Positions 14,996-25,500 of a stretch of DNA of 64,000 nt are shown here, one piece after another. The position numbers and the translations under genes are program-made. Every line of letters starts with the position of its first letter. The first letter of the stretch is position 1. The stretch comes from Trichosporon coremiiforme. Lineage: Eukaryota > Basidiomycota > Tremellomycetes > Trichosporonales > Trichosporonaceae. The notes below the pieces were generated by a model. It had not been told where the DNA came from and did not search any database. It saw nothing but the letters and a program-made list of their open reading frames with translations. The stretch is taken from positions 62,001 to 126,000 of the forward strand of contig BCJJ01000012.1 in assembly GCA_039545355.1 (NCBI GenBank), read 5' to 3'.

Positions 14996-15319
14996 AATGT
15001 CTGCGATGGATCTTTGCAAATACCTCGCCCTCGCTCTCGATCGCACGCACTACGCGCCAGCCGCAGATGGCCGACGTACTGGCCGACGTGCAGCGCCGCC
15101 GCCCCCCTACCGACCTGCTGTTGGGCAGTGCCGACGTGCCACGGCTCCGCGCATGCGCCATGCACTGTGCGCCCGTAGAGTCTATATCGTGATGCATGAA
15201 ACATAAATGCTCATCTACGCTCGTCGCACTCCTTCACCGTAGGCGCGGCGCTCACGGCGCGCGCGACCTTTCCTCCCTTGCTATGCGGCGACTCGCAGCG
15301 CTCGCGGCTGGCTCGCGCC
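14996..15319. other. Intergenic between convergent genes, 324 bp
   Basis: Shared 3' region of DOM34 (plus) and KEI1 (minus). No gene seen. Confidence 0.6.
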
Positions 15320-16374
15320 TTAGTCCCAGCTAAACTCATCGCTGTCTCTTGACTTGCCCGGCCTGCCGGCTGCGCCGCCGGCGCTACCGTTACCTGCCGT
15401 CGTCATGCGCGGCGAGGTGCGGGGCGAGCCGACGGCCTCTTCCGAGGCGCGCGCGCCGCGCTCGATCCGCTCCACATCGGCCAGGGCGCGCTCCATCTCG
15501 ATCTCCTCGTCGAGCGCTGTTGCGGCCAGGGAGGCGCGGCGGGCCTCGATCTGCGTCACTTGGTTCGCGTGCGTGGTGAGGGGCAGCTGGTGGTAGGTGC
15601 CCGAGCGGAGGTGGGCCGCGTAGCTGTACATCAGGAAGATGAAGTAGACCTGTGCGTTAGCTTGGCCTGGAGGAGGATCTCGCGCAGCTCCGTGTCTCGA
15701 TACCGACGGACTGTCCGCAGGGGGGTCGAGACACGACACTCGCTCCTCGACTCAACTCACCTTCAGCAGGAAGCCCACGGCAATAACACCAAGGGCATAT
15801 CCCTTCTCCTTGTTCCAGATATCGTGCGCGAGCTGGGCCTGCTTGTCCCGACCCGCATCGAGGGGTTCCGTCTCTCCACGGCTGAGCGCGAGTTCAAAGA
15901 TATCCTTCTGCGCCTGCGAGTTGAGGACGCGGGTCCCGTCGTGCTTGAGCGTGTACCAGTAAGCGTAGTAGAAGATGTAGTGGAAGACCCAGGCGATGGC
16001 ATGGTCGATGACGTAGAGGTGCGCGACGAAGAGCGACTTCTTGGCGACCTCGAGCTTGATCACGCTCAGCGCCCAGAGGAACGCCCACAGCGTCGCAAAC
16101 GAGTAGGCGTAGTACAGGAACTGCCAGAACGTGCCGCCGACAATGACCGTGATCAGGCCGTACACTCCGGCGACCTTGTTGATCAGCTGTAGTTGTTAGT
16201 TCTTTCTCTGCCTCTGTGTCCTGGGCTCGCTCACGCCGAACAGAAGCACGATCTCGCAGCCTGGGTGTCAGCACAAGGCAAGTGATGCTTTAGCTTACCC
16301 AGCTTCAGATCGAGGATGCCGAGGAAGGAGTTGAACACGGCGCCCGGCGTCATGCGGCGCATGTTGACCCTCAT
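15320..16374 (-). CDS. KEI1: Inositol phosphorylceramide synthase subunit Kei1
   Basis: Four exons: 16374-16299, 16260-16235 (26 nt), 16186-15761 and 15649-15320, giving 285 residues. The start MRVNMRR is followed by the conserved sequence around FLGILDLKLGCEIVLLFG, then INKVAGVYGLITVIVGG, YVIDHAIAWVFHYIFYY and VYFIFLMYSY, matching the order of membrane segments in yeast Kei1. Kei1 is the Golgi partner of Aur1 and is needed for inositol phosphorylceramide synthesis, a fungal-specific sphingolipid step. The C-terminal ~100 residues are Ser, Glu and Gly-rich and cytosolic-looking, longer than in yeast. All introns have GTRAGY-type donors and CTGAC or CTAAC branch sites. Identification is by pattern of hydrophobic segments and short motifs, not by alignment. 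Confidence 0.8.
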
Positions 16375-16815
16375 GGCGGCGTGCGGAGTTGGGTCGTGTC
16401 GGTCGGGGTTGTTGTGGAGAAGTCGGCGACGTAGAGACGCGCCATCGACGACACACCCAACGCTAAGGCCCCGACTGGAGCCGCGCGCAGCCTGGCTGCT
16501 GGCTACGATAGCGGTGCGGACGGAGGCACGTGGTCTGTCTGCGTGCCTGTTTGCTGACGTGGGATGCAGGTCTCAACTGATAAGCAGGACCTTCATCTCT
16601 GTCACGTGAATTCACACCCAGAGTGCCACACTCCAGCCAACTCCGGCGATACGACGGTGCGAGGCAAAACTGGGACGGGAGCAAACGCACGCGAGCCAAC
16701 CGCAAAATTCGTTGCACGCAACCAGACCCTCCCAGCGACGCTCGCCGGCCTGGTATTGCTTTATTCACGACTGTGTTGCATTCTCTAACCGTCAACCTCA
16801 CCTGCATCGATCAAA
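16375..16815. other. Divergent promoter region, 441 bp
   Basis: Lies between KEI1 (minus) and RPL30 (plus). No additional gene seen. Confidence 0.6.
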
Positions 16816-17569
16816 ATGGCCCCCAAGAAGTCCAAGTCCGCCAAGTCCTCGGAGAACATCAACTCCCGTCTCCAGCTCGTCGTCAAGTCGGGCAAGTACA
16901 CCCTCGGCTACAAGCAGGCCCTCAAGCAGCTCCGCAACGGCAAGTGTGAGTAGACTTTTCCGACAAAGTCCACTCTCGACCAAGCAACCGACACGACGGA
17001 AACCAGCAAGATCCTCAGCAGCATGCCCGACACAATGTGCACTTACCCTTTGAATCGTGCGGGGGTTTGGTTCTGGTCCGCGGCGTTTGGCAATGCTGGA
17101 GCGACGGCGCGAAGAATTTTCCGAAGGGGGTGGTAGATTGGGCCGCCAGACGCTGGCTGGATCGCCTCTACACCTCGTACCCGTTTCGCTGAGAAGGCAA
17201 CGCCGACGCCGCGCTGCAGACCTACCCGCATGGGGACCGGAGTCAAGCTGAGATGGAATCCCCGGAGCTTGGCCGAGATGGCACCCCGTCTATCTGTTAC
17301 TAACCCCTTCGCAGCGAAGCTCATCCTCATCTCCAAGAACTGCCCTCCCCTTCGCAAGTCGGAGCTTGAGTACTACGCCATGCTGTGAGTTGTGCCGTCT
17401 TCTTCCATCATAGAACTCCGCTAATAATTTCAGTTCGAAGACCTCTGTCCACCACTACGAGGGCTCCAACGTCGACCTCGGCACCGCTGCCGGTCGTCTC
17501 TTCCGCGTCGGTGTCATGTCCATCCAGGACGCTGGTGACTCCGACCTCCTCCAGGTCGAGACCGCCTAA
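16816..17569 (+). CDS. RPL30: 60S ribosomal protein L30 (eL30)
   Basis: Exons 16816-16945, 17315-17384 and 17434-17569 encode 111 residues, the usual length. Hallmarks are [26 protein letters not shown] near the N-terminus, [34 protein letters not shown] in the middle (split here by intron 2) and [25 protein letters not shown] at the C-terminus. It belongs to the L7Ae-type kink-turn-binding fold. Intron 1 is 369 nt, far longer than most introns in this window, and ends ACTAACCCCTTCGCAG. In budding yeast L30 binds its own transcript at the first intron and blocks splicing; whether this long intron carries such a site is not decidable by eye. I looked for C/D-box snoRNA motifs in it and saw none. 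Confidence 0.95.
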
Positions 17570-17737
17570 ACGCACCAAAACCTTGGGACTTAGGTCGATC
17601 TGATGCATGTATAACAGGCATTAATCCTGGGCGCAGTGTTGCAACTTTGAGATATCATGAGATAAGGAACTGACGAGGCTCGTGTGGTAGGGAAATGTGA
17701 GGCGATGGGAAGTACGATGTGTGCAAGAGAGTACATG

Positions 17738-20342
17738 CTAGATGCGAGTGATACGAACGACCTCGACGGGGGCGCCAAGATCCAGCGCTGTGTCCCAGAA
17801 CGTCGGGTTCTCCCTACTCATCGGCTCGAGGGGGAGGAGCTTAGTCTTGAGTCCAGCCTCGTCTGCTGTTAGCTATCACCGCAATGCGCCACAGCTAGAC
17901 CCACCACACCGCTGCAAGAACAGCTTGAACGTCTCCTCATTCCGCACCGTTGCTGCGAGGATGGCCTGTCGACCTTCCTCGAGCAGCGCGGAGAGCGCGT
18001 CCACGAGCAGAGGAACGATGTCCGGGTCGTAGATCTGATGTCAGCTAACACACCATACCGCTGCAGCTGGGCAGACTCACCACATCAGCAGCGACAATGT
18101 CCCGTCCCTTCGCCTCCTCCCACGCCGGCGGGCGAGTTTCAGCTCTCGCATCAGCCCAGTCGAGAGCCTGCGCCCTGTTCTCCGGAATGCCGTCTGCTGG
18201 TCAGCTCCTTAGCAGTCCGCCGGGAAGCTCACTGATCTCAAAGTTCCGACGCAAGCGGGCGAGAGGCGTCTGCCTCGCTCCTGGCTCGTCACAGGGACAC
18301 TCGGCGCCGTCACAGTCACCCAGGTCGGTCGCGAGTACGTCGTGTCCCAACTGCGTCAGTAGCGTGCTCAGGAACCCAGTTCCTGCGCCGAGCTCGATAA
18401 CTCGAGGGGATAGACGCACGGCACTGCGCAGTAGGTGGTGGCCTAGATGAAGGGAGGCTGTCCAGGTTCGCAGACCTGTGCTGCCTGAGGAGACGGCAAC
18501 TTGCTCCTCGAGCAAGGTTATGCGGCCCTCGCGCGAAGTGCTGGGATTAGCTAGGTAACGGGGGAAATGTAGCTTTACGTACGCGGTTCTGACTGTCAGC
18601 TACCCATCCGCCCGCTAGCTGGTGTACTCACGAGTCGCTCAGTGCCGGGCTGAAGGTCAGCTGAGGCCGTACGACACGAAGCTGAGACTCACGTAGTCCT
18701 GCTCGTTAGTTTTCTGTTGCCACTCTAACTCACAAATCATCATCCTGCGGTGGCCTGGAAGTCAGCTACCCGAAAAACCTGGTCTGCTCGACGCACGAAT
18801 GTCTGCGAGTCAGCTCTTGGGGGCAGTCTTCGAAACTGGGAGACTTACAATGAACTCTGCTCCAGACTGATGGTCAGCTAGGGCGGCAATGGCAGGGGAG
18901 CTGGACATACCCCGTTCTGAGGTCAGCCGGGCCAGACGGCTGGAAGCTCGTGGACCTACGTCTCAGTCTGTCTGTTGCTGGTCGTTAGCTCGGGACCCAT
19001 GCGCACTAGCTAGCGCGTACATTCTGTGGGTCAGCTGTTGCCATACACCCGGCCGCTCACGTATCTCTCGGTCCGGTCCTGGTGATTAGCTTGGCAGGAG
19101 CTCTTGAAGCTGGTACGTACGCAGATCTGCTTGTTAGCTATGCGGCGAGAACGACGTAGCTCACTCCGCGTTCCCTCTTTGTCTGAAAGTCAGCTTCTCG
19201 GAGACCTGGTTTGCAACTGAGACATACCCCGGTCTGCTTGTCAGCTCCGCAAGCGGCTTCCGAGCGACTCACCCTAAGCTCGTGGGTCTGGATGTCAGCT
19301 TAAAGAATCCCGGATAGCTGAGACGTACCCTCTGTCCGTCAGCTCACGCGGTGTTTCAGGAAGCTGAAACTCACGCGTCTTCCCCTCCAGGGCTGCTGTC
19401 AGCTCGAAATGCTTGCAGCTGGAAACTCACTGTCTGCTCGTCAGCTATATCTCGTGTACAAAGCTCACGTCCCCCCCTCTTCCAATCTGCGAATCAGCTC
19501 ACATCTACAAATGGCTAGCTGGACATACCCCTTCCTGCTTGTCAGCTTCCGCGGAAGCGGTCAGCTGATGAGAAGACTTACACTGTCGTCGGTGGACTGG
19601 ATCTCGTCAGCTCGGTCTGTCAGCATGTAAGCTCACTCGTAAAGGAACGTCTTGAAGCTCTGTTTCGGTCTGCTCGTTAGCTTGTCTCGGATCGAGATAG
19701 CTCACGCTCCGGCGTCGCCTGCGCCTACGGCGAGAAAGGCGACGGTTTCGTAGATCCGCTCGTCGACCTGGCGTTAGCTACAGTTGGGGCAATACTAGCA
19801 GAACCCGTGTCTCCTTGTGTCACTCCACGTAGCACAATTTCCTTAGAGGACAGTTGCGTTGAGTGCATTAAGCGTGAAAGTCTGATGGTAGTGTGGAATG
19901 AAGGAGGGAAGACACATATCAGCGGGGAAGACCGACTCACCTCCTCCACACCTTCACCGAGCATGACCCCCTTCTCCAGCGCAGGCAACACCCTCCTCCA
20001 AAACTGCCTCGCGTACTCCCTCTCGGGCGCTGGCGGGTCGTCGTTGAGCAGAGACAGGAGTGTGTCGTGACCTTCCTCGCTCGCCAGCGTCGAGGGTGTC
20101 GGCACCGAAAGCAAATATGCGGGACAGAGGGCGTAGTACTGTCGCCGGAGCAACGTCAGGCCGTCCATGTTGCCGTTCGTCGCCTTGCTTGTTGACTCGT
20201 CGCCAGGGCTGGTGAGGTTAGTGAAGGAGAGGAATGCCTGGAGATGGAGAGAGACGGTTGGTGGACTCGGAATGTCGGTGAGGTCATGCCATAATCTTGG
20301 ACTTGCGGTCATGTCCGCAACATTTCTGGTCCCTGACGACAT
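17738..20342 (-). CDS. EFM3: EFM3/FAM86-like eEF2 lysine methyltransferase with a microexon array
   Basis: The model has 27 exons and 466 residues. Conventional exons are 20342-19941, 19767-19706, 19669-19637, 18540-18233, 18193-18081, 18034-17905 and 17862-17738; twenty microexons lie between 19596 and 18583 (separate entry). The N-terminus (residues 1-165) carries the FAM86-type sequence REYARQFWRRVLPALEKG, EEVDERIYETVAFL and KQSFKTFLY. The C-terminal class I methyltransferase fold has ITLLEEQVAV, GSTGLRTWTASLHL, SAM motif I VIELGAGTGF (from about 289), VLATDLGD and DIVAADV-IYDPDIVPLL. The known EFM3/EEF2KMT enzyme trimethylates a lysine of elongation factor 2. An alternative start is the downstream ATG at 20312. 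If all microexons were skipped, LY-D-TSREGR would join in frame with the spacing expected for the family. Confidence 0.8.
18541..19636 (-). repeat. Tandem intron/microexon array, ~10 units of ~105 bp
   Basis: On the minus strand, 21 consecutive GT-AG introns of 35-47 nt separate 20 microexons: 19596-82, 19534-29, 19486-69, 19433-31, 19392-75, 19331-29, 19287-73, 19233-28, 19182-65, 19126-21, 19078-61, 19023-21, 18977-60, 18916-11, 18866-49, 18802-797, 18754-34, 18698-93, 18649-32, 18588-83. Lengths alternate long (15, 18 or 21 nt) and short (3 or 6 nt), and all are multiples of three. Every intron is phase 2. Starts of successive short exons are 98-114 bp apart. Introns after long exons mostly open GTGAGY; those after short exons mostly open GTAYGT and carry a CAGCT near base 8. 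Nearly all end AGCTGAC or AGCTAAC plus 3-7 bases plus CAG. The 76 encoded residues contain no stop and are hydrophilic (Gly, Glu, Ser, Thr, Pro, Asp). Splicing is inferred from sequence only. Confidence 0.85.
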
Positions 20343-20763
20343 TGGCGCGCGAGCAAACTGGCGCGCGCCTACCCACCCAGTCCCTGTCGAGTGGCCCCGA
20401 CATGGCCCCCGCTGACCCGCCCCGCCTCCCCCGCTTCACGCTTCGTCCGCTGCGTCCGCGCTTCTTCTGTCCGGCCGCTCCGGGCGTCCTCGGTGAACAT
20501 TCATCCTTCTGTGCACATGTGGGTTCCTTTGACCCAAACCATGCCCACACGCCCACCACATCCATATGCTCCTCCTAGCGTGTCCGAATAGATTGCATAA
20601 ATCGTGAGATGTAGGGGGGTGGAAGCTAGTTTTAATCGCTGCTGCGACGGGGATACCTGGCCATGCCCGCCGCCTGTTGCGTTCACTACGTTGTCTGTGT
20701 TGGTTGCGTTCACGGCACTTGCGGTATTCGTTGCGCTCATGCCGCTCACGCTCACATGCGCGC
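20343..20763. other. Intergenic, 421 bp
   Basis: Between PEX11 (upstream on the minus strand) and the EFM3-like gene. Holds their 3' UTR and promoter; no gene seen. Confidence 0.6.
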
Positions 20764-21751
20764 TTAGGCGCTCTTGGCGCGGACGCCGGCGGCCTGCTTG
20801 GCCCAGACCTTCTGGAGGGCCATGTACGAGGTGATGGTACCGCAGAGGCCGACGAAGCCCTCCGACATGTGCGTGTAGCCGAGGTTGTTGGCGGGGATGA
20901 AGATGTCGAGCGAGTCGCCGATGAGCTGGCTCATGATCTGCTGGCGCTGCGCGAGAAGGGCACGGCCCTGCTTGCGGCGTTCGGCCTCGTCGGCCGCCGC
21001 GTCCTCGGGCGCCTTCTCCGACGAGGCGGCGCGGCCGGCGTCCGCACGGACGGCGAACCGCCTGGCCTGAGCGCGCAGGTTGGCGAGCGAGGCAAGAGAA
21101 GAGATGATCGAGAGTGTGAGACCGCTGATCCACGCCTTGTTCGAGATACGAGACACCTTGGCAGCCTTCCTGTGACGAGTCAGTACGGTCTGGGCTGCAA
21201 AACTTACTCCTTGTCGAACTGCAGGAACTTGATGCTCTGGAGCCAGACAAGCGTGTCAGTCGACAGGAACACGGCGTAACAGAGCTGACGGGCGAACTGC
21301 GTCGTCTGCGCGATCCTCTGAGTGCGGGGGATGCCAGCGCTGATCATTAGCTGGTACTCGCAGTGCGCTTAGCTTACAGAGGCTGCTCGCTGATGTTGAG
21401 GGCGGAGCGGAGGTTCTCGAGTGGCTTGAAGATACGCATCACTGTCGCGGGTGTCAGTACGTGTTTTACCGGATTCCAGGAATTTTGCCACGCTCGAGCA
21501 CTCACTCTTACGGCCCATGCCGAGGCCACCCTTGAGGGCATTGAAGCGGGCGGCAGCCTCGACGAGACCACGGCGACCGTACGACCAGGCAAGGATACGC
21601 GAAATGTACTGGATAAGACGGTAGGTCTGGGAAGCGTAAGCAACGGAATCGCGGGTAGGATACGGACCTTATCACGGCCGATGGTGGTCGCGAGGACGGC
21701 GAGGAAGGTGGAGATCTGGGGGGAGTAGAGGACCTTCTGAGCGATGGTCAT
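20764..21751 (-). CDS. PEX11: Peroxisomal membrane biogenesis protein Pex11
   Basis: Five exons: 21751-21668, 21626-21506, 21441-21378, 21339-21208 and 21169-20764, giving 268 residues. The N-terminus contains the conserved membrane-bending region (TTIGRDKTYRLIQYISRILAWS), followed by FKPLENLRSALNI, DTLVWLQSIKFLQFDKE, AWISGLTLSIISSLASLANL and, near the C-terminus, a glycine-rich amphipathic end (PANNLGYTHMSEGFVGLCGTITSYMALQKVW). Pex11 elongates and divides peroxisomes and forms a pore-like conductance. Residues about 175-205 are a charged Ala/Glu/Arg loop. The first intron uses a GTCCGT donor, unusual for this window, but it restores the family sequence RDK-TYRLIQY exactly. The gene is divergent from the kinesin-8 gene. 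Confidence 0.92.
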
Positions 21752-22513
21752 GGTGGCTGAAGTGTGTCGGGGGGAGGGAGGACGAGGAGGATGGAGAAGA
21801 GTAGGGAAAAGGAGCGTGGAAAGGGTGTGATGGGGTTGCCAAAAGGTGTGGATGTGGGTGGTGGGAGTGTGGGTGGAAGTCGAAGCGACGGAGCGCAGCG
21901 TGCAAACGACGAGCCGGGTCGGCTTGGGAGGCTCCTATTACCCGGTCGGTTGCGCGGTTGCTCGGGTGACCGAGTTCTCAGTTCGCGAGCGTTGCACGTG
22001 GGACTCTCGTGGACCTAGAGCAAAGTAAAACAGGGTGACGCAGATAAAGAGTCGGACGCGATTGACTTCTCTTCCGTCCGGCGTGCGGCCCCTGGAACGG
22101 CTGATGGGTGCCCTGGGAGTGCGTGCCTGTCTGAGGGCGGTTGCCTTTCAGGTGACATGACGATGGCAGGAACACAACAACAACATTCGTCCACTCAAGC
22201 TCAGTACGCACAACACTACACTCAACATACGACCATACATAACCTTAGTCCTCCCACAGCACCCATTCCTCACCACCACCGCACACATCTCTCCGTTCCT
22301 CTTGACAGCTTGTCCGGTACAACCTATCTCACCGATACCTTCAACCCGCATCGCTCTCCTCTCCGCGAGGCGAATGCTTGCGACGACCACGGCGCTTCCC
22401 CTGCGCCCCTAGGCCTTCCGACATCTCACACATAAACACCCACAGCCCTTCCGCAACCTCTTTCTCTCAACTCTTCCCCATCACCCGCCTCCTGCACAAC
22501 ACCACCACACACC
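21752..22513. other. Divergent promoter region, 762 bp
   Basis: Between PEX11 (minus) and kinesin-8 (plus). CA- and CT-rich toward the kinesin start (leader). No gene seen. Confidence 0.6.
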
Positions 22514-25500
22514 ATGGCGTACCTCGCTGACGAGAATGCCATGCGCATTTGTGGTGCGTCTACACTGCCACTTGGTCGCTTATTCGTGCGCTGACGTCCC
22601 TAGTTCGACCAAGACCTTGGCACCCGGAGAAAGAAGCCCCGTTTCTTGCGCAGCACGTTGACATGCCCTTCTTCCTCGGAGAGGGCAACTTTGCGCAACC
22701 CAAGAAACCCCCAACGAACGGCTCGCTGCGCGAGATCGTCGGTGAGTCCTTGTTTCGAAGGCTGGTCTGTGCATGGATCCGTGCTGATGCAAACACTCAG
22801 AGGTCATCGACAACCGTCAGCTCGACTTTGACAAGCCGCCGCCAGGCGGACTGTCTAAGAAGGGAGAGGTCGGCGCCAAACGCTACAAAAACCGAAGGTG
22901 GGTTCATCGTCACGCTTGACCTAACGCGACAGATACGTCTTCGACCATGTGTTCAAGATGGCTGCGTCCCAGGAGGAGGTGTACGAGAACACAGCGAAGC
23001 CTCTCCTTGAAGGTGTCCTGAAGGGCTTCAACGCGACTGTCTTTGCTTATGGAGTGAGCTGAACGGTCATTGACTCAAGCTAACCGCAGGCCACCGGGTG
23101 CGGTAAAACACACACGATCTCTGGCAACGAGAACGACCCCGGAATCATCGTTCGAACCATGCGCGACCTGTTCACGATGATCGAGGAGACCAAGGACAGG
23201 TTTGAGACGCGTGTCGAGCTTTCCATGGTCGAGATTTACAACGAAACGATCCGCGACCTCCTTAGCGACGGCTTCCCGGCGATGCCTGTCCACGGTTTGA
23301 AACTCATGGAGAACGAGAAGGAGCGAGTCACGATCGCCAACGTTACAATCAAGGCGCCCACCACCGCGGACGAAGTCATGGATCTTGTCATGTTAGGCAA
23401 CGAGCGACGAAGCACCTCGTTCACAGCTGCCAACAGCCAGTCTTCGCGATCCCACGCCGTCCTCCAGATCAACGTTACGCGCAGTGCGCGGCGAGCCGAC
23501 GTTGACTTTGAGCGGGAAGAGATCAGCTTGGACACCAACTCAGCCACACTGTCGATCGTTGACCTTGCCGGAAGTGAACGTGCGTCTGCGACGCACAACA
23601 TGGGCGCACGCATGAAGGAAGGAGCGAAGATCAACCAGTCTCTGCTCGCCCTCAGCAGCTGTATCGGTGCACTCTGTCTTGCCCAGCGTCGAGGCTCGCG
23701 ACCGCACGTGCCATACCGCAATTCCAAGCTCACTCGACTTCTCAAGTTCTCGCTCGGTGGCAACTGCCGCACTGTCATGATCGTCTGTGTGTCGCCCAGT
23801 TCGCGCGACATTGAGGACACAAGCAACACGCTAACCTGGGCGAACAAGGCGAAGGACGTCAAGACGACAGTGTCGCGCAATGTCGGCGGTCACCAGGTTT
23901 CGGCTCGTCAGTACCTCGAGAAGATTGCCGAGTACTCGGAGCGTATCAAGCTGCTCGAGGCGCAGCTGGAGAAGCGCGATGCCGAGCTAAACGGCGTGCG
24001 CAAGGTCAAGCAGAACGAGGCGCAGCAGCGTATCCGCGACGCCGTGCGCGTCATCACGGACCGCATTGAGACCGACATTGCCGCTATCAAGGATGGCGCC
24101 GAGCACCGTGCGCTTTGGGATATCGCTGATCTCGGTCTCACCTACATGGGCAACCGCAAGGACGAGATCGACGTCGACGAGGCTTCCATGGACCCCGAGG
24201 CGGAGAAGGCGCAGTGTCAAAAGGTCATCAACCAGTACAAGAACGCCTACGTTGAGAACCGGAATGTCCAAGCCAAGGTCCGCCGTGAGCACGAACTGGC
24301 GACCGGCATCGAGGCGCAGATCCAGCAGACCGAAACGAGAACGTTCTCTGGCCTCGACGACGTCAACATCCGCAACCTGCACCTTGAGCTTGCTGCGCAG
24401 CGCCACCGCATCGCCGACGCTGTGTCAGATGCCCGCCAGCGCGGGTATCGCACATCTGCCGCTCGCCTGCAGGACATTCTCGCGCGCTGCATCATCGCGC
24501 TCTCGCGTCAGGATACGATGATCCGCCGCAACAAGAGCGACATCGGCGCCCTCCTGACTGCCACAGCAGCGCAGCAGCCCGATCTCCTGGCACAGATTGC
24601 TCGCCGCATCACCGGCGCCGCCGACATCAGCAGCAATGAGCTGCGAGCCATTGTTGACTCGATCGGCACTATGGACAGCCTCCCACCCCAGTCTCCCGTC
24701 AAGCCTGTCGTGCCTCCTGTTCTTGCCGCTCTCCGCTCGCCGGACAGCTCATTCAGCAGTCTGTCGCCTGGCTCGCCCCGTGCCAAGCGTCTGTCGAAGG
24801 GACATGTCGCAGGTAAGCTGAACTCGCCTCGCAAGTCTGCACCGCGCGCACTGCGTCGAACATCGCTCGGCCCCACGACAAAGCCGGCACGGACAGCGCG
24901 CTTTGCCGACGAGATGGACCTCGAGACCGTGCACCACTTCACTCAACACGGCAACGATACCTCCAATAGCATGGAGGTCCTCGACGATTCGGGAGACTGG
25001 GAGGAGATCTCCGAAACGGTGAAGCCGATCCCAGCGAGCAGGTTGCGTGTCTGCTCGACCCCGGCTCCGTTCACGGTCAGCGAAGAGGCACCAGCCCCTC
25101 CCCCCCCAACATCTACGCCTGCTCTCGCACCCATGCCTGCGCCGGCAGCGAAGCCTTCCCCATCGCGACCGCCCTCCTCTGCTTCTAACAACGAGCCGAA
25201 GGCGTCCCCGATGTCCGATTCGATCCCGGAGTGGAAGAAGAACCGCATGCTTCTCGGCAAGTCGTCCATGAGCAGCCTGAACGGCGGCGGGCCGCCATCC
25301 TCCCCCAACACATCTGTACAGGACGGGTCTCCGATGAACCGCTCCATGGCTGGATTAGGCTTAGGTCGCCCCGTGCGCCGCCCGGGTGCGCCTCTCGGCG
25401 AGCTGAAGCAGTTACCTAGTTTACGAGCTTCGGTGGCGTCGCGGCTGATGGAGCCGACTGCGTCGTCAGCGGCCCGTAACAAGGGAGCTACGGAGACGCC

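Follow-up and report, generated by a model that had tools for sequence, protein, structure and literature searches.

A tandem array of frame-preserving microexons and putative introns of about 41 nt in two homeologous copies of a predicted EEF2KMT/FAM86/Efm3 gene

A gene on the minus strand of the analysed window (the whole stretch of DNA under study, 64,000 nucleotides) contains a tandem array of 20 microexons, none longer than 21 nt, and a diverged copy of this gene on another contig of the same genome carries a similar array with 12 microexons. We read the array as a series of genuine introns, each spliced out on its own, and of translated microexons within an orthologue of EEF2KMT/FAM86/Efm3, probably formed by duplication of a repeat unit and coding for a probably disordered linker; based on the sequence of the two copies we put the probability of this reading at roughly 0.86. 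The microexons would very probably be both spliced and translated, and most transcripts would presumably contain all of them. In the following we describe the array and its host gene, the evidence that the reading frame has been held, the alternative readings, and the relation of the array to other genes.

Anatomy of the array and of its host gene

The array was parsed with a rule that makes no use of the reading frame, namely a donor GTRNGY, a branch site CTRAY and the next YAG. This frame-blind parse returned 20/20 microexons, and the coordinates, exon lengths, number of introns and 76 stop-free codons given in the preliminary description were all reproduced. The features are listed below in the direction of transcription, the array and its microexons as obtained from the frame-blind parse.

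19941..20168, minus strand, exon 1 of the EFM3/EEF2KMT-like gene, likely start ATG at 20168
19706..19767, minus strand, exon 2, with a phase 2 end
19637..19669, minus strand, exon 3, encodes ...PKQSFKTFLY, the final ordinary exon ahead of the array
18541..19636, minus strand, array of 21 introns (35-47 nt) and 20 microexons
19582..19596, minus strand, microexon 1, 15 nt
19529..19534, minus strand, microexon 2, 6 nt
19469..19486, minus strand, microexon 3, 18 nt
19431..19433, minus strand, microexon 4, 3 nt
19375..19392, minus strand, microexon 5, 18 nt
19329..19331, minus strand, microexon 6, 3 nt
19273..19287, minus strand, microexon 7, 15 nt
19228..19233, minus strand, microexon 8, 6 nt
19165..19182, minus strand, microexon 9, 18 nt
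19121..19126, minus strand, microexon 10, 6 nt
19061..19078, minus strand, microexon 11, 18 nt
19021..19023, minus strand, microexon 12, 3 nt
18960..18977, minus strand, microexon 13, 18 nt
18911..18916, minus strand, microexon 14, 6 nt
18849..18866, minus strand, microexon 15, 18 nt
18797..18802, minus strand, microexon 16, 6 nt
18734..18754, minus strand, microexon 17, 21 nt
18693..18698, minus strand, microexon 18, 6 nt
18632..18649, minus strand, microexon 19, 18 nt
18583..18588, minus strand, microexon 20, 6 nt
18233..18540, minus strand, first methyltransferase exon, encodes TSREGRITLLEEQVAVSSGSTGLRTW...ELGAGTGFL
18081..18193, minus strand, second methyltransferase exon after the array
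17905..18034, minus strand, third methyltransferase exon after the array
17738..17862, minus strand, terminal exon including the stop codon

Pfam reports the Methyltransf_16 domain (PF10294) in both gene copies, with 40.1 and 43.7 bits against a cut-off of 21. The N-terminus had been described as FAM86-type in the preliminary description; Pfam reports no FAM86 domain for either protein copy. With the protein of the copy on contig C6 as the only query, the best solved relative was human EEF2KMT (PDB 8fzb, E 2.2e-11), with METTL21B as the runner-up (E 3.1e-5). The alignment of the C6 protein to 8fzb sets in at HEGRITL, three residues past the array, and the linker and everything N-terminal of it lie outside the aligned part. 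Based on PF10294 and the closest structure, the array-bearing gene is predicted to be an orthologue of the eEF2 lysine methyltransferase EEF2KMT/FAM86/Efm3. In the window protein 76 of the 408 residues come from microexons, and the insert forms a degenerate repeat just N-terminal of the methyltransferase core.

Two details of the gene model needed attention. The preliminary description had let the gene start at the ATG at 20342, which is indeed in frame but has no counterpart in the homeolog; in that copy no in-frame ATG precedes the point corresponding to 20168, and the ATG at 20168 (MDGL...) is therefore favoured as the likely start codon. For the intron that precedes exon 3 we used the donor GTGAGC at 19705, which matches the exon end of the homeolog; the parser had also taken an upstream GTAGGC at 19728.

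A similar rule applied to both strands of the 64-kb window found the same 20 microexons and two further gaps of at most 30 nt (27 and 26 nt). A 200-kb sample from two other contigs of the same genome held three gaps of at most 40 nt (37, 24 and 23 nt), in a total of 149 intron-like matches of which a part is due to chance, the reversed control giving 54. No inter-intron gaps of 1-30 nt were seen in twenty 64-kb first-order Markov sequences (one strand each), and a chance origin of the array was rejected since random sequences yield no such array.

The window microexons strictly alternate between long (15-21 nt) and short (3-6 nt), which only 2 of 184,756 arrangements do; this suggests two microexons per repeat unit. 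Two simpler descriptions of the repeat were tried and rejected. An ordinary minisatellite was one of them: Tandem Repeats Finder (minimum score 40) reports none within 18541-19636, and the likeness between units is only statistical. The other was a nucleotide family dispersed in the genome; in a search that skips very common words, the array DNA matched only itself and its homeolog.

The homeologous copy and the reading frame

The second copy of the gene was found on contig C6 in a search of the genome (42.04 Mb in 134 contigs), which may be that of a hybrid within the yeast order Trichosporonales, as suggested by its size, homeologous pairs and intron signals. This copy lies at G000:C6:125713-127273 and its array contains 12 microexons, compared with 20 in the window, with lengths of 15, 6, 18, 3, 18, 3, 6, 18, 6, 18, 6 and 24 nt. 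All 12 are multiples of three, every junction is in phase 2 and no stop occurs; the alternation of long and short is broken once, where a 3-nt exon adjoins a 6-nt exon. The frame-blind parse recovers 10 of the 12. The parser misses the intron that follows ACACAT, an exon of 6 nt; this intron, whose branch site reads CTTAC, was placed by eye, and the parser fuses ACACAT and the next exon (18 nt) into a 65-nt piece. The window from 15174 to 23440 is collinear with the C6 copy (L016) over approximately 8 kb at 73-83% identity, and only one long part of it, 18711-19275, fails to match; this part lies inside the array. An assembly artefact was rejected as an explanation of the array, because a diverged second copy on another contig also carries one.

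It is clear from the lengths that the microexons follow a rule of threes. All of the 32 microexons in the two copies are multiples of three, compared with 11 of the 34 array introns (Fisher 9e-10), which are distributed 11/11/12 by their remainder on division by three. Among 77 other small exons found genome-wide, which include members of irregular clusters and of homeologous pairs and where a simple score was applied to several possible donors, with the result that some lengths may be off, 26 were multiples of three (7e-12 against 32/32). The pieces found by the frame-blind parse alone gave 30 multiples of three out of 31 (3e-10 against the genome control). This control was made with one strict splice pattern that occurred in 99 places, and in none of the reversed control; 14 of the places fall in the EFM3 pair and 8 in an array on contigs C2 and C4 (see below), and the remaining 77 were all counted. 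Of the EFM3 microexons the strict pattern detects 11 of 20 in the window and 3 of 12 in C6, so other arrays may have been missed.

Duplicated lengths are not independent, and a figure such as (1/3)^32 would overstate the case for the frame. Because the repeat units share ancestry, a test on length changes is safer. All 10 exons that depart from the modal length do so by a multiple of three, as do 5 of 28 introns (6e-6), and when departures common to both copies were counted once the figures were 7 of 7 exons versus 3 of 16 window introns (5e-4).

The composition of the joined inserts points in the same direction. The 76 codons of the window and the 47 of C6 contain zero stops, while the other frames contain 4 and 3 (window) and 1 and 3 (C6); the lack of stops alone is weak evidence, as 5.9% (window) and 11.7% (C6) of base shuffles of the inserts are also stop-free. 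Both inserts are in addition devoid of Phe, Trp, Tyr and Cys. Counted together, stops, aromatics and Cys amount to 0 in frame against 7 and 10 (window) and 5 and 7 (C6) in the other frames, and zero was reached in 30 of 5000 within-exon shuffles for the window and in 50 of 5000 for C6. Retention of an intron would keep the frame without a stop for 5 of the 34 introns (4/21 in the window, 1/13 in C6). The claim of the preliminary description that the frame has been selected and the microexons are used is thus supported: a diverged array of another copy number is again built from multiples of three, in phase 2 and without stops, unlike the array introns and other small exons.

Divergence, unit duplication and alternative readings

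The array introns resemble ordinary introns in length (mean 41-42 nt vs 39 nt) and in their branch sites, when compared with a set of 34 introns of at most 50 nt with the AGCTRAY motif from the 200-kb sample. Donors of the form GTAYGT are rare in ordinary introns, yet they follow 6 of the 10 short exons of the window. The motif CAGCT occurs within the first 20 nt of 14 of the 34 array introns but in only 1 of the 34 ordinary introns, and in the window such introns come after 6 of the 10 short and 3 of the 10 long microexons. The shorter motif AGCT near the donor had been considered as a mark of the array; it was dropped because 22 of the 34 ordinary introns have it, and only CAGCT is enriched. 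As a separate observation, these 22 ordinary short introns (from the set L017-L036) have AGCT soon after the donor and once more in the branch site AGCTGAC, and as the motif is self-complementary the two could pair.

Likeness among the units was measured against shuffles and ordinary introns. Among the seven 18-nt exons of the window the likeness is 39%, compared with 28% in shuffles (0/5000), and among the seven 6-nt exons it is 43%, compared with 26% (1/5000), where the shuffles ignore splice-boundary preferences that may add to the likeness. Introns that follow short exons resemble each other more than ordinary introns do (0 of 300 ordinary sets), while those after long exons do not, since 262 of the 300 ordinary sets score as high.

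A comparison of the two copies shows how differently the parts of the gene have evolved. The microexons taken as orthologous are the first six and four near the far end; DNA matches cover both ends of the array, and microexon 17 was paired by eye. In the flanking exons dN is 0.038 and dS 0.86, as compared with 0.42 and 0.40 in the first six microexons, which together provide only 65 nt, and 32% of the bases differ in orthologous microexons. Because dN is close to dS in the microexons, the amino acids of the linker appear nearly free to change while the reading frame is held. In ten pairs of introns taken as orthologous, differences were counted at 10 of 150 positions in the splice signals and at 108 of 247 in the interiors, the low figure for the signals being partly circular as the C6 introns were found with the same patterns. 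The linker is hydrophilic, with a hydropathy of 0.38 in the window and 0.36 in C6, which is under the Uversky boundary of 0.46 and 0.44, respectively, and it is probably disordered in both its 76-residue and its 47-residue form.

Three other readings of the array have to be weighed against splicing and translation of all microexons. Variable skipping of microexons as a source of protein variants is the proposal for schistosome micro-exon genes, and the present array could likewise be kept because each in-frame subset of microexons yields a working protein that differs in its linker. All possible junctions within the array are in frame and form no stop (231/231 in the window and 91/91 in C6), and with branch sites that are similar from unit to unit some rate of skipping is plausible. 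That skipping would be harmless to the frame allows variable splicing, however, and does not demonstrate it: in-frame junctions also follow from constitutive use after unit duplication, given phase 2 throughout, and exon ends TA or TG would make stops at most adjacent junctions anyway. Moreover, the gene codes for a housekeeping enzyme, and its linker, in this small sample, bears no sign of sequence conservation or positive selection. We therefore consider it unlikely that protein diversity is what keeps the array.

Far less probable is that the stretch 19636 to 18541 forms one large intron, or a small number of large ones, in which the internal splice-like sites are idle and the microexons never enter the mRNA. 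It is true that direct joining of the exons on either side would likewise be in frame and without a stop, and that the genome has other clusters of intron-like units with gaps that are not multiples of three. Unused sites give no reason, however, why 32 of 32 pieces in two diverged copies should be multiples of three and should be free of stops, aromatics and Cys in one and the same frame, while no rule of threes holds for the array introns or the irregular clusters. It has also to be asked whether the multiples of three could be a mere relic of the tandem duplication of a founder unit, with no selection on the frame. The units are indeed related, at least in part, but all ten length departures (seven with the shared ones counted once) are of 3 or 6 nt while the intron lengths have drifted freely, and a 32% base difference in orthologous microexons implies time enough for other changes; we consider this reading very unlikely.

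Under the preferred reading, with individually spliced introns and translated microexons, the array probably originated and expanded as units of two introns and two microexons, typically of 6 + 2 codons, i.e. an octapeptide, were duplicated in tandem. All introns would lie between the second and third base of a codon and the length of every microexon would be a multiple of three, and with this common phase a unit that is gained, lost or resized therefore keeps the downstream methyltransferase domain in frame. Unit duplication would account for the alternation, for the phase that the introns have in common and for the raised likeness among 18-nt and 6-nt exons and among introns that follow short exons, but not for the introns after long exons. 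Descent of every unit from a single unit is only partly supported, because the introns after long exons are not alike and the alternation is broken once in C6. The spliceosome would recognize such a gene by intron definition, because its introns measure approximately 41 nt and an exon of 3-6 nt can hardly hold U1 and the 3' splice site factors together, and adjacent introns would presumably be removed one after another. The expected product is the full linker just ahead of the methyltransferase core, 76 residues here and 47 in the homeolog.

Other arrays in the genome and relation to known systems

The genome contains one further pair of arrays and a number of intron-dense loci:

G000:C2:1241000-1244500, plus strand, second array (L040), 11 array exons
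G000:C4:804500-807500, minus strand, homeolog of the second array (L041), 9 array exons of 21-93 nt
G000 C48:75000-77500, intron-dense locus L042
G000 C22:562000-564500, intron-dense locus L043
G000 C12:442800-445500, intron-dense locus L044
G000 C9:939500-941500, intron-dense locus L045
G000 C39:85500-87000, intron-dense locus L046

The protein encoded by L040 and L041 begins MGLFSKKSSDSVKEAADAVRKLS, and most of the array exons encode one short repeat each, e.g. AEPVAEKQ. All of these exons (11 and 9) are multiples of three, 21-33 nt long apart from one of 93 nt, and in L041 they share a single phase; for L040 the evidence consists of the exon lengths, as its translation is in the wrong frame, probably because the first intron was missed. 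The array region looks disordered as judged from its sequence, and a Pfam scan of the L041 protein gave nothing above the cut-off. Like the EFM3 array, L040 and L041 form a homeologous pair with exons in multiples of three and short peptide repeats; unlike it, they have one intron per repeat and no exons of 3-6 nt.

One strand of the loci L042-L046 carries between 10 and 20 intron-like units per 1.5 kb and the other strand 0 or 1, compared with at most 7 per 1.5 kb in the 200-kb sample; two more loci, L047 and L048, have 7 and 6 units and are not exceptional. In L042-L046 the gaps are irregular in length, some being 0 or 1 nt, and over L042-L048 28 of the 71 gaps of at most 60 nt are multiples of three. 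No Rfam family reached the gathering score in L040 and L042-L048, and no DNA matches of L043 and L044 were found elsewhere in the genome. The loci L042-L046 are possibly noncoding, multiply spliced transcripts.

Viewed together, these loci allow a more general reading that we offer tentatively and regard as possible but rather doubtful, namely that tandem intron-microexon units are a self-extending coding repeat, in which exons multiply along with their introns and encode disordered linkers split into pieces of as little as one codon, the length of a linker being free to differ between lineages and possibly, through in-frame skipping, between transcripts. The EFM3 array would then be the extreme case beside the coarser array of L040 and L041 and the frameless intron-dense loci.

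Exons of 3 nt between introns of 40 nt, in repeated succession, are close to the limit of what the spliceosome should handle, and the array makes it possible to test splicing without exon definition, the order of intron removal and its accuracy. The homeologous pair, with 20 and 12 microexons in one genome, constitutes a natural experiment in the growth or shrinkage of an array, and it shows how introns could spread through tandem duplication in coding sequence provided that the phase is kept. Genes of this kind are probably missed or truncated by gene predictors.

To our knowledge there is no comparable fungal gene. The micro-exon genes (MEGs) of schistosomes encode short secreted proteins, with a coding sequence that is mostly microexonic, long introns and alternatively spliced microexons. 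They share with the EFM3 array the runs of very short symmetric exons that can be joined or skipped without loss of the frame, and the many successive symmetric exons of about 36 nt or less that characterize MEGs are found here as 20 and 12 exons of 3-24 nt. Unlike in MEGs, where microexons make up most of the coding sequence, they account for 76 of 408 residues in the window protein, and the array lies inside a conserved enzyme, has introns of approximately 41 nt and repeats a unit of two microexons; the likeness to schistosome genes would be one of architecture and not of kinship. In genes for repeat proteins such as collagen, each repeat corresponds to a single symmetric exon, and in genes of this type, as in the EFM3 array, tandem-duplicated symmetric exon-intron units lengthen a repetitive region of the protein. 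The EFM3 array differs from them in that its octapeptide repeat is cut twice, into pieces down to a single codon.
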